From Halanaerobium sp. MA284_MarDTE_T2 (GTDB taxonomy: Bacteria; Bacillota; Halanaerobiia; Halanaerobiales; Halanaerobiaceae), in assembly GCF_003337245.1 (NCBI RefSeq), contig NZ_QPJE01000003.1, positions 62,001-126,000 on the forward strand: a stretch of 64,000 nt of DNA, in the 5' to 3' direction. Shown one piece after another: positions 57,030 to 64,000 of this stretch. The notes below the pieces were generated by a model. The model did not search any database and was not told the origin of the DNA. It saw only the letters and a list, made by a program, of their open reading frames with translations. Every line of letters begins with the position of its first letter. Within the stretch, counting starts at the first letter, position 1. A program made the translations under genes and the position numbers.

Positions 57030-57635
57030 TTGCAGAGCATTAATTATTTAAACAATGAATATCAGCCATCTAAAATTATATGTGTAGGCAGAAATTATGC
57101 TGAACATATAAAAGAACTCAATAATCAGAATCCAGAAGAACTTGTGCTTTTTTTGAAGCCCAATAGTTCTGTCAGCCGGGAGGTGAAATTACCTGAAGGC
57201 AGATGCAGATATGAGGGTGAAATATCTTTTTTAATGAAAAATGGAAAAATATCCGGAGTAGGATTTGGAATAGACTTGACTCTGGTTGATGTCCAGAACA
57301 GACTAAAAGAAAAGGGGCTGCCGTGGGAAAAGGCAAAGGCATTTAATGGTTCTGCAGTATTTTCAGATTTTGTAGAAGTTGAAGAAGTTAATAATTTAAG
57401 CTTAAAACTGTATCTTAATGATAAATTGTGTCAGGATGGTGGTATAGAGCTTATGATATATAAGCCGGCTGATATTATTGATGAGGTTAAAAAACATTTT
57501 AGTATTGAAGATTATGATATAATAATGAGTGGAACACCGAGTGGAGTAGGATTTTTAGAAAATAGAGATATTATAAGAGGAGAAATTTTTGCTGGGAAAG
57601 ATCTGCTTATTGCAGAAAAATGGCAGATTAAATAA
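57030..57635 (+). CDS. Fumarylacetoacetate hydrolase family protein
   Basis: 201 residues, shorter than full FAH but typical for the YcgM/acylpyruvase group. IICVGRNYAEHIKEL, FLKPNSSVS, RYEGEISFLM (metal Glu pair), WEKAKAFNGSAVFS, and MSGTPSGVGFLENRDII. Enzymes of the group hydrolyse acylpyruvates or decarboxylate oxaloacetate; substrate here unknown. TTG start after GGGAGGAG. Confidence 0.85.
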   Translation: MQSINYLNNEYQPSKIICVGRNYAEHIKELNNQNPEELVLFLKPNSSVSREVKLPEGRCRYEGEISFLMKNGKISGVGFGIDLTLVDVQNRLKEKGLPWEKAKAFNGSAVFSDFVEVEEVNNLSLKLYLNDKLCQDGGIELMIYKPADIIDEVKKHFSIEDYDIIMSGTPSGVGFLENRDIIRGEIFAGKDLLIAEKWQIK

Positions 57636-57640
57636 AAAAA

Positions 57641-57727
57641 TGGTGCGAAAGGAGGGATTCGAACCCTCACGGTCTTGCGACCACTAGACCCTGAACCTAG
57701 CGCGTCTGCCAATTCCGCCACTTTCGC
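57641..57727 (-). tRNA. tRNA-Leu (anticodon CAG)
   Basis: The minus strand folds into an 87-nt class II tRNA with acceptor GCGAAAG/CTTTCGC, discriminator A and encoded CCA (57643-57641). The anticodon arm is CTAGG-TTCAGGG-TCTAG, giving CAG (Leu, CUG). The variable arm is TGGTCGCAAGACCG-like (GGTC/GACC), and the T arm is GAGGGTTCGAATCCCTC. Confidence 0.95.
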
Positions 57728-57783
57728 ACTGACAAATAACATTTTAAATGAAAAATTTTTGTTTGTCAAGTATAAAATCAGTT

Positions 57784-60417: not shown

Positions 60418-60432
60418 AAAGTTTTGATAAAA

Positions 60433-61665
60433 ATGGAATTAAATAGAGAAATAAAACTGTTTACAGTTGAAGAAATAACAAATTATTTAAAAGGTATGAT
60501 AAATAATGACCACCTGCTGCAGGATTTCTGGATAACAGGTGAAATTTCCAATTTTTATCACCACAGTTCCGGGCATATGTATTTTACATTAAAAGATAAT
60601 TTATCCCAGTTAAAATGTGTTATGTTTAAGGGATATAATAATTCACTGGATTTTGAGCCTGAAGATGGACAGAAAGTCACCGCAAGAGGTAATCTTGATA
60701 TATATAAACGCAGAGGCGAATATCAGTTTTATGCCAGAGAAATGCAGGTTGAAGGCAGAGGAGCACTATTTATAGCTTTCGAAAAATTGAAGAAAAAGTT
60801 AAAGGAAGAAGGTCTATTTGCTCCTGAAGAAAAAAAAGCAATCCCAATTCTTGCTAAAAGAATTGGGATTATTACTTCTCCAACAGGGGCAGCAGTAAGA
60901 GATGTTCTTTCCGTTATGAAGAGGAGAAGAGGTAATTTTTCTGCTTTAATAGTACCCACACATGTTCAGGGAAAAAAGGCAGCAGCTGAGATTATAGAGG
61001 CACTGGAATATTTAAACAGCCGTGATGATATAGATCTTATTATTGTTACCCGTGGTGGTGGTTCTATAGAAGATCTCTGGCCTTTCAATGAAGAGTTGGT
61101 TGCCAGAGCAATCTACAATTCCAGGCTGCCGGTTATTAGTGGTGTTGGTCATGAAACAGATTTTACTATATCCGATTTTGTGGCAGATCTCAGAGCTCCC
61201 ACACCTTCAGCAGCTGCAGAAATTGCAACTGCAAATAGGGAGGAAATACTAAATAGACTTGATAGTCTTAAAGAAAGGTTAAAAACATCTATAAAAAATA
61301 ATTTAAAAAACAGAAGAGAAAAAATTGACAGTCTTTCTAAACGGAGAATATTTGCAAAACCGGAAGAACTTTTTTTTCAGTATGAACAGCTTTTAGATCA
61401 ATTTGAAAGCAGATTAAAGCATGAGATAGAAAATACATATAATCACTACAATAATAAATATCAGCTTCTATATGAAAAACTTAATAATTTAAGCCCATTA
61501 AATACTCTTTCCAGAGGTTATGCTGTGCTGAACGATAAAAACAATAAGCTGATTAAAACTGTTGATGATGTAGAAAAAGGCGATTATCTTTCTGCAAAAC
61601 TTGTGGATGGGAAATTAGGACTCAGGCTGGAAAGTAAAGAAAAAGCAGGTGAATATGATGACTGA
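60433..61665 (+). CDS. xseA: Exodeoxyribonuclease VII large subunit
   Basis: 410 residues. N-terminal OB fold (LFTVEEITNYLKGMI ... FWITGEISNFYHHSSGHMYFTL), catalytic domain with RIGIITSPTGAAVRDVL, GGGSIEDLWPFNEE and PVISGVGHETDFTISDFVAD, then a long coiled coil. Degrades single-stranded DNA with XseB. ATG 60433 is used; TTG 60424 is an alternative, and neither has a strong ribosome site. First gene of xseA-xseB-ispA. Confidence 0.95.
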   Translation: MELNREIKLFTVEEITNYLKGMINNDHLLQDFWITGEISNFYHHSSGHMYFTLKDNLSQLKCVMFKGYNNSLDFEPEDGQKVTARGNLDIYKRRGEYQFYAREMQVEGRGALFIAFEKLKKKLKEEGLFAPEEKKAIPILAKRIGIITSPTGAAVRDVLSVMKRRRGNFSALIVPTHVQGKKAAAEIIEALEYLNSRDDIDLIIVTRGGGSIEDLWPFNEELVARAIYNSRLPVISGVGHETDFTISDFVADLRAPTPSAAAEIATANREEILNRLDSLKERLKTSIKNNLKNRREKIDSLSKRRIFAKPEELFFQYEQLLDQFESRLKHEIENTYNHYNNKYQLLYEKLNNLSPLNTLSRGYAVLNDKNNKLIKTVDDVEKGDYLSAKLVDGKLGLRLESKEKAGEYDD

Positions 61666-61912
61666 AGAAACAAATGATATAAAGTTTGAAAAAGCGCTGG
61701 AAGAATTAGAGAAAATAGTTAATGAACTGGAAAAAGGAGGCCTATCACTGGAAGATTCACTGGATAAATTCAGCAGAGGTATGAAGCTCATAAAAATGTG
61801 CCACACCAGGCTGGATAAAGCAGAGAAAGAAATTGAATTGGTGCTGAAAGAAAATGGAGAATTCAGTAAAACTGTTAATTTTGAAGACGATAATGAGGAT
61901 GAAGATAAATGA
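61658..61912 (+). CDS. xseB: Exodeoxyribonuclease VII small subunit
   Basis: 84 residues from ATG 61658, with AGGTG 6 nt upstream (ATG 61655 and GTG 61649 are in frame). Two-helix family pattern FEKALEELEKIVNELEKG, LSLEDSLDKFSRGMKLI, then an acidic tail. Overlaps xseA by 8 nt and ispA by 4 nt. Confidence 0.93.
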   Translation: MTEETNDIKFEKALEELEKIVNELEKGGLSLEDSLDKFSRGMKLIKMCHTRLDKAEKEIELVLKENGEFSKTVNFEDDNEDEDK

Positions 61913-62793
61913 AAAACATAAAAAAAATTCTGACTGTAAAGGCAGAAAAAATTGATAGAGAATTAAATAAATTATTTGATCTGAAGGAAACAGAATTATC
62001 ACCTACATTAAGTAGAGCAATGGAATATACTGTTTTCTCTGGTGGTAAAAGGATAAGACCTGTTTTAACACTTCTTACTGCAGAGATGTTAAATGGTAAT
62101 ACTGATGCTGCCTTAAAAGCTGGATCTGCTCTGGAGCTTATACACAGCTATTCTTTAATTCACGATGATCTGCCTAGTATGGATGATGATGATTTTAGAC
62201 GCGGAAAAGCAGCAAATCACAGAGTTTTTGGAGAAGGAATAGCTGTTCTGGCAGGTGATGCACTTTTAACATATGCTTTTGAAATATTATCTGCCTTAAA
62301 AATAAGTGCAGAAAAAAGGATTAAAATTATCAGTTTAATTTCTACTGCATCAGGCTATCAGGGTATGGTTGGTGGTCAGGTTCTGGATTTAGAAGGAGAA
62401 AATAAAAATCTTGATTTAGAAGAGATGCAGAAAGTTCACCGAGGTAAAACAGGTGCACTTATAAAAGCATCTGTCCTTACAGGTGCATACTGCAGTGATA
62501 CAGATAAAGATGAGATTGATGCTCTGACCGATTATTCAGAAAATCTTGGAGTTACTTTTCAGATTGTAGATGATTTACTTGATGTAGTTGGTGATGAAGA
62601 AAAATTAGGTAAGGCTGTCGGCAGTGATGATAAATTAAATAAATCGACCTATCCAAAACTACTTGGTATTGATGGAGCCAAAAAAGCAGCCGAAAAATAT
62701 GCTTTAGCTGCAGCAGATGCACTGGATGTTTTTGGAGATGAAGCCCGTCATCTTAAAGAACTGGTACAATTTGTACTCTACAGGCAGAGCTAA
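61909..62793 (+). CDS. ispA: Farnesyl/geranylgeranyl diphosphate synthase
   Basis: 294 residues. Prenyltransferase motifs: GGKRIRPVLTLL (~43), first Asp-rich DDLPSMDDDDFRRG (~83), GQVLDLEGE, and second Asp-rich VDDLLDVVGD (~225). Condenses IPP with DMAPP/GPP. In Halalkalibacterium and relatives OLE RNA and oapA follow ispA inside the isoprenoid gene string, as here. ATGA overlap with xseB. Confidence 0.95.
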   Translation: MKNIKKILTVKAEKIDRELNKLFDLKETELSPTLSRAMEYTVFSGGKRIRPVLTLLTAEMLNGNTDAALKAGSALELIHSYSLIHDDLPSMDDDDFRRGKAANHRVFGEGIAVLAGDALLTYAFEILSALKISAEKRIKIISLISTASGYQGMVGGQVLDLEGENKNLDLEEMQKVHRGKTGALIKASVLTGAYCSDTDKDEIDALTDYSENLGVTFQIVDDLLDVVGDEEKLGKAVGSDDKLNKSTYPKLLGIDGAKKAAEKYALAAADALDVFGDEARHLKELVQFVLYRQS

Positions 62794-62822
62794 TTGAACA
62801 GTATAAGTTATTATGTTATAAT
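62794..62822 (+). promoter_or_regulatory. Promoter for OLE RNA
   Basis: TTGAAC (62794-62799), 17-bp spacer, TATAAT (62817-62822). It starts at the base right after the ispA stop codon, and its predicted start (~62829-62832) coincides with the first base of the OLE terminal stem. Confidence 0.8.
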
Positions 62823-62831
62823 TAAACAAAA

Positions 62832-63408
62832 TGTGAGTGGTGCAGTATCCTAGTCAGTGTATTATTCTTGAAGACGGGCCTAAAAATCCGTCAGCGGGCA
62901 TATCGATGAAGTTCTTTACATCGGCTGCTGACGCCCAGTCGGGAGCTGATGTAGGGAGTTAAGGGTTTGGGGCGATCCACAATGGCATGTGGGCGTTGAC
63001 CCCTTTCCCGTGGAGGCCTGGTATTTATTCCAGCTTGGAATAAATCTAGGTTAACCTGCCCAGCCGTAAGGTTTGGGTAGTGTAGCCTGCTTTGAGTGGT
63101 ACTGGAGACAGTAGCAAAACATATAATTTTGGATCCAAATTATATGTTGAACCTGCTGGAAACCTTTACTGCAAAAGAAGCTAGGGAGTAGTTTAAACAC
63201 TGTTAAGGAAAACTTCTAGGCTGTCTGCTAGTACAGGATACAGTGGAGATTAAAGTGTGGTCTGAGTGGTAATCCAGTTCTATATAAGGGTAACCATATA
63301 GTCGAAATTTAATGAGAAATCGCCTGTTCTGGTGACAGAAGGGGGTATTTCGGGGGAAAACCTACTGGACCTAAGCCACAGCATTTATTTGCTGTATCAC
63401 CACTCACA
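62832..63408 (+). ncRNA. ole: OLE RNA (ornate, large, extremophilic)
   Basis: A 577-nt stretch with no credible ORF and high internal pairing. Its ends form an 11-bp stem, TGTGAGTGGTG (62832-62842) with CACCACTCACA (63398-63408). Other stems seen by eye: CGTCAGC (62889-62895) / GCTGACG (62927-62933), the CGATG / CATCG hairpin inside it, and ACAGCA / TGCTGT (63378-63395). Size, GC content above its surroundings, and position between ispA and oapA match the known OLE class (about 600 nt, membrane RNP with OapA; needed for tolerance of cold, alcohols and Mg2+ stress in H. halodurans). T6 after the terminal stem may terminate part of the transcripts. I could not compare it to the Rfam model. Confidence 0.9.
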
Positions 63409-63491
63409 AATTTTTTGAAAAATACATTACAATTTAAAATATAAATTTAATTAAAGAAATGATATAATAAACTTAATGAGGTGTATAAAGT

Positions 63492-64000
63492 TTGGATAAT
63501 TTGCGCAGCAGTATTATTATTGCTATCATTACTTTTTTTATTGCAGTATTTGTTACCTTCAGTTCCCAAACTCAGATACAGTTTGTTTCTTTACCAGCGG
63601 CAGTAATTATACTTCTGCTTATTATAATAACGGGTATAATTGCAGATATGGTGGGGGTGGCAGCTACAGTTGCTAGACCTGAACCATTTAATGCAAAAGC
63701 TGCCAAAAAAATATTTGGAGCAAAATCCGGACTTTTTCTGGTTAAACATGGTGATAAAGTTGCCAGCCTGATGTGTGATATAGTTGGAGATATATGTGGT
63801 ACAATCAGTGGAGCAATAGGAGCAGTAATAGTTATTAGAATTGTAAATACTTATAATTTTTCCAATGTTATTACCAGTCTAATTATTATAGGCCTTACAT
63901 CTTCTCTTACAGTTGGTGGGAAGGCCTTCTTTAAAAGCTATGGTATAAAAAAATCCAGTGAAATTATATTTTTTACAGGTAAAGTAGTCGCCTTTTTTGG
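63492..64000 (+). CDS. oapA: OapA, OLE RNA-associated membrane protein (3' end outside window)
   Basis: The frame from TTG 63492 (GAGGTG, 63479-63484) is open to the window end: 169 residues visible. Hydrophobic helices at about 8-26 and 34-52, then the conserved cytoplasmic loop with DMVGVAATVARPEPF, AKKIFGAKSGLFLVKHGDK and SLMCDIVGDICGTISGA, then further helices near 112-150. OapA binds OLE RNA as a dimer and holds it at the inner membrane. It is about 84 nt downstream of the RNA and should be followed by more isoprenoid genes outside the window. Confidence 0.88.
   Translation, partial: MDNLRSSIIIAIITFFIAVFVTFSSQTQIQFVSLPAAVIILLLIIITGIIADMVGVAATVARPEPFNAKAAKKIFGAKSGLFLVKHGDKVASLMCDIVGDICGTISGAIGAVIVIRIVNTYNFSNVITSLIIIGLTSSLTVGGKAFFKSYGIKKSSEIIFFTGKVVAFF

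Follow-up and report, generated by a model that had tools for sequence, protein, structure and literature searches.

A full-length OLE RNA locus with a predicted promoter of its own in Halanaerobium, a member of the diderm Halanaerobiales

Known OLE systems and the Halanaerobium locus

OLE is a bacterial RNA notable for its large size, high conservation, and binding to membranes, and one of the first species with OLE was Halothermothrix orenii. The genes of its protein partners OapB and OapC commonly, albeit not universally, accompany OLE. In Halalkalibacterium halodurans, ole lies in a large operon and yet has its own promoter, as reported second-hand in PMC9723947 (citing Ko and Altman 2007), and the OLE dimers of Clostridium acetobutylicum and C. 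botulinum have been described by cryo-EM (PMC12286853, PMC12265935). Moreover, bS21 is a reported OLE partner that binds helix P6 in H. halodurans via conserved G-C pairs, and a link of OLE to translation through bS21 at P6 has been proposed; some functions of OLE do not require bS21, and whether the conserved pairs serve bS21 or the ribonucleoprotein (RNP) in general was left open (PMC12054373). OLE has also been proposed to contact the Gram-positive cell wall (PMC12265935), and the lack of OLE in the diderm Negativicutes has been read as a hint of a role at this wall (PMC11332333). In the literature searched here, which did not include the key early OLE papers, OLE RNA was not mentioned together with Halanaerobiales or Halanaerobium.

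The window analyzed here, a stretch of 64,000 nucleotides from Halanaerobium sp. MA284_MarDTE_T2, ends in a gene cluster with the following features, in which oapA was identified via open reading frames and family alignment.

60424-61665, + strand: xseA, exonuclease VII large subunit (PF02601, E = 5.6e-96)
61649-61912, + strand: xseB, exonuclease VII small subunit (PF02609, E = 2.6e-21)
61909-62793, + strand: ispA, polyprenyl (farnesyl/geranylgeranyl) diphosphate synthase (PF00348, E = 1.3e-61), with its TAA stop codon at 62791-62793
62794-62799, + strand: -35 element TTGAAC, the first base of which directly follows the ispA stop
62814-62822, + strand: extended -10 element TGTTATAAT (TG at 62814-62815, TATAAT at 62817-62822)
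62821-63419, + strand: untruncated match to the Rfam OLE model (RF01071) over its positions 1-616 (457.9 bits, E = 2.1e-132)
62829-63408, + strand: predicted OLE RNA proper, its 5' start (62829-62831) deduced from the -10 element and its 3' end from P1
62832-62842, + strand: 5' strand of the terminal helix P1, TGTGAGTGGTG, which covaries with its 3' partner strand (44 loci compared)
62963-63009, + strand: P6 stem region, with the GGGGCGA...GACCCC core kept and no CCUCC anti-Shine-Dalgarno mimic
63398-63408, + strand: 3' strand of the terminal helix P1, CACCACTCACA, covarying with the 5' strand across 44 loci
63492-64000, + strand: oapA, with a TTG start and the ribosome-binding site GAGGTG; the gene extends 37 nt beyond the window end, and OapA has 181 aa in all

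From the letters alone, the initial annotation had claimed an OLE RNA of about 580 nt with an 11-bp terminal stem, an oapA partner gene, and an ispA neighbor. The RF01071 search that it proposed returned the full-length match listed above, far beyond the gathering cut-off of 50 bits and the only copy in the genome; ispA lies directly upstream of OLE and oapA downstream, and the predicted span of about 580 nt agrees with the claimed size. The claimed stem was likewise recovered, with TGTGAGTGGTG pairing with CACCACTCACA. Across the 44 loci compared, the terminal stem had 9-12 bp in most, with G-C, A-U, U-A, and C-G interchanging at several positions, although these pair counts are biased towards pairing because the best register was picked (a non-homologous one in L007, L019, L048, L051, L054, and L071). 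The Rfam OLE model leaves this stem unpaired; it is very probably the P1 helix of the published OLE model, where P1 is placed in domain 2 (PMC12265935).

Downstream of oapA follow dxs and then rRNA-methylase-like, NAD-kinase-like, recN, and Spo0A-like genes, as named by inspection of their translations. An OapA family member adjoins OLE in all 20 of the non-Halanaerobiales loci scanned, and the closest OapA matches in a named search came from Halanaerobium, Halothermothrix-like, and other Halanaerobiales contigs, with no OapA relatives found in viral contigs. An OLE-oapA pair close in sequence to those of Halanaerobiales also occurs on a contig labelled Candidatus Atribacteria (L046), where OapA is 51% identical and P6 has the same form as in Halanaerobiales, pointing to mis-binning or horizontal transfer. 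Elsewhere in the window, the translation of an open reading frame at 57512-57769 (- strand) resembles a tRNA-Leu gene read as protein, and this is probably a tRNA gene.

Overall, the locus resembles that of H. halodurans in its full-length OLE with oapA directly downstream, its predicted promoter within an operon, its clustering with isoprenoid and DNA-repair genes, and the presence of OapB and OapC genes in the genome, whereas it differs in that an LPS outer membrane surrounds the Halanaerobium host, in that bS21 was not detected there, and in that its P6 is without the CCUCC mimic, which is also missing in 20 other loci. With C. acetobutylicum and C. botulinum it shares the RNA family and the OapA partner; those hosts are monoderm.

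Promoter and transcript ends

The promoter claimed by the initial annotation to begin at the first base past the ispA stop was found at 62794-62822, with a spacer of 17 nt between TTGAAC and TATAAT. In a single-sequence scan, 13 such sites were present in 4 kb compared with 13.8 expected in shuffles, and comparative evidence was therefore used. TGnTATAAT occurred upstream of OLE in 24/24 Halanaerobiales loci against 0.32 expected from the frequency of this 9-mer elsewhere in the same loci, which are related, so that the counts are not independent. A TTG-initial -35 element was located at 16-18 nt in 22 of the 24 loci, the other two (L009 and L013) having TTTTAA. With one representative for each of 12 genera, the mean pairwise identity was 0.96 for the extended -10 element and 0.77 for the -35 element, but only 0.45 in the spacer and 0.39 in the stretch that follows the -10 element. 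Furthermore, the gap between ispA and OLE ranged from 25 to 196 nt across the Halanaerobiales loci, whereas the distance of the promoter from the conserved OLE 5' segment stayed at 11-30 nt, with a single case of 51 nt. A promoter-like match was also present upstream of OLE in 18/19 loci of other Bacillota, with no more than 3% of shuffles reaching it. The conservation of the site, together with its positioning by the RNA and not by ispA, argues for more than chance, and the OLE promoter is probably real and general. As ole is reported to have its own promoter in H. halodurans, this element does not set the Halanaerobium locus apart. Transcription would likely start at 62829-62831, so that the earlier placement at the first base of the stem would be right as to the vicinity but 1-3 nt too late.

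On the 3' side, no intrinsic terminator was found between OLE and oapA in 23 of the 24 Halanaerobiales loci, and thus transcription from the promoter should enter oapA and probably dxs, with the OLE 3' end needing to be made by processing. The probable product of the promoter is therefore ole-oapA-dxs RNA, with the OLE 3' end arising by cleavage, and the suggestion that OLE is made independently of the isoprenoid operon holds for upstream transcription but not downstream. The sole locus with an intrinsic terminator separating OLE from oapA is L002 (genome G031), where the terminator is followed by a promoter-like TTGACT...TAAAAT and the ispA-OLE gap is the longest, at 196 nt. Additionally, a second extended -10-like site, TGATATAAT, lies between OLE and oapA at 63460-63468 with a weak -35 (TATAAA), and this site could be an oapA promoter in Halanaerobium sp. 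MA284_MarDTE_T2.

The reading that we consider highly probable is that of an ordinary full-length OLE RNP locus in Halanaerobiales, with its own conserved promoter, a start at about 62829-62831, and 3' processing. For the start site, 3' processing, membrane location, and function of the Halanaerobium OLE, we infer the following scheme. A sigma-A-type extended -10 promoter inside xseA-xseB-ispA-ole-oapA-dxs would start transcription at the above position, and ole-oapA-(dxs...) would be made from this start besides any upstream read-through. The OLE 5' end would be fixed by the promoter start, while the 3' end would most likely come from processing at the P1 helix, as proposed because no terminator precedes oapA. 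By analogy with known OLE, the RNA may dimerize, bind OapA, a four-helix membrane protein and distant kin of the CNNM metal transporters, and sit in the cytoplasmic membrane. Together with OapB and OapC, it may act in stress adaptation, as demonstrated experimentally only in H. halodurans.

Alternatively, the promoter could mainly serve oapA-dxs, with OLE chiefly a structured 5' leader regulating in cis. The general lack of an OLE-oapA terminator and the short distance in Halanaerobium, where oapA starts 11-16 nt past the end of the OLE match, are in keeping with such a leader, as are two sister genomes (G003 and G004) in which ole and most of oapA have been deleted while the promoter region persists before dxs. 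Their scars (L113 3640-3990 in G004 and L114 2426-2864 in G003) consist of ispA, the kept promoter region, fused N- and C-terminal oapA fragments, and dxs, with no OLE remnant detected by cmscan, whereas the congener G002 (L003) has an intact locus. However, it is established for H. halodurans that OLE accumulates as an RNA of about 630 nt, ranks with the most abundant transcripts, and is bound in trans by OapA, OapB, and OapC (PMC9723947, PMC12265935), and the terminator of G031 parts OLE from oapA, which makes the leader reading unlikely. It is also conceivable that OLE comes only from a long xseA-dxs mRNA, out of which it is cut, and that the promoter-like site is an AT-rich coincidence. 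The H. halodurans cluster is indeed described as one polycistronic RNA (in PMC12265935, by way of Puerta-Fernandez 2006), and the site was unremarkable in the single sequence; but a coincidence would hardly leave the -10 and -35 elements conserved in 12 genera amid a diverged spacer and flanks, or hold the site in place relative to OLE where ispA is up to 196 nt away, and we regard this possibility as very unlikely. Nothing specific speaks for a degenerate or non-functional OLE copy beyond the existence of decayed loci in one Halanaerobiales genus, and with a full-length high-scoring match, intact P1, P6, and oapA, and both OapB and OapC present, such a copy is extremely improbable. The ordinary RNP locus with its own promoter is therefore retained as the best explanation.

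Distribution, protein partners, and host envelope

OLE is not a peculiarity of one genome, as might have been supposed from the initial annotation, but the rule in the order, being present in 24/38 Halanaerobiales genomes. Intact OapA was found in all 24 OLE genomes and in none of the 14 OLE-less ones. Weak matches to the CNNM family (E = 8e-7 to 6e-4) were obtained for OapA of several Halanaerobiales, in agreement with the published OapA-CNNM link. Among the MpfA/CNNM-CBS metal exporters, MpfA-type proteins differ from OapA in carrying CBS and CorC domains but no RNA. A CNNM-domain protein occurred in nearly all Halanaerobiales, OLE-positive and OLE-negative alike, so that the published OLE-MpfA anticorrelation is invisible within the order and a replacement of OLE by MpfA there is unsupported. 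In the PDB, OapA also matched a potassium channel, but weakly and probably spuriously.

With respect to the other partners, an OapB-like 94-aa gene is located between map and infA, assigned by synteny and its best PDB match (7k9b, OLE-associated protein B, E = 2.4e-7) rather than by a curated model; a search for OapB via Pfam KOW gave no match. OapC/YbxF is represented by an L7Ae-like 83-aa gene between rpoC and rpsL. In contrast to the 11/11 OLE-bearing genomes outside Halanaerobiales in which bS21 was found, bS21 (PF01165) was not detected in this genome or in any of the 38 Halanaerobiales genomes, with positive controls working. The yqeY gene, which often adjoins the bS21 gene, is present in this genome without it. 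Considering that bS21 is dispensable for some OLE functions, its absence does not remove the Halanaerobium locus from the OLE RNPs.

The P6 core GGGGCGA...GACCCC was retained in all 24 Halanaerobiales loci, and the retained pairs, judging from the consensus, would be those bound by bS21 in H. halodurans. The keeping of these G-C pairs in 24 genomes without bS21 favors a role in the RNP generally over one in binding bS21. A connection between the loss of the anti-Shine-Dalgarno mimic and that of bS21 was considered and rejected, as CCUCC is missing in 20/20 non-Halanaerobiales loci too, and all tested genomes among these have bS21.

The host had been taken for a probable diderm, and this was borne out by a lipid A/outer-membrane cluster on contig C9 encoding LpxB, LpxI, an LpxA-type acyltransferase, a FabZ-type dehydratase, LpxC, and LpxD, along with OmpH, Omp85 with POTRA (BamA), and TamB. 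Halanaerobiales are established LPS diderms (PMC5007114), and Omp85 and LpxC were detected in 36/38 and 35/38 genomes of the order, respectively, which, with OLE in 24/38, indicates that in most of the order OLE and an LPS outer membrane occur together. As the Halanaerobiales show, having an outer membrane is thus no bar to OLE.

Implications for OLE in diderm bacteria

In its OLE identity and promoter, the Halanaerobium locus matches known OLE, and what it adds is a diderm order without bS21 that keeps the remaining OLE apparatus. Tentatively, and with somewhat less than even confidence, we suggest that the OLE RNP of Halanaerobiales is of a form that does not depend on bS21 and works in an LPS double-membrane envelope, with P6 retained to serve RNP folding or OapC switching rather than bS21. 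If this is true, OLE would not require its proposed link to the Gram-positive wall, and if the published transmembrane model also holds, domain 2 of OLE would be exposed to a periplasm that an outer membrane encloses. The genomes of the order constrain proposals tying OLE to the Gram-positive wall. Moreover, the deletion scars of ole and oapA with their leftover promoter offer natural knock-outs for comparison, and the Halanaerobiales, most of which keep OLE, OapA, and P6, constitute a natural test of both the cell-wall and the bS21 ideas.
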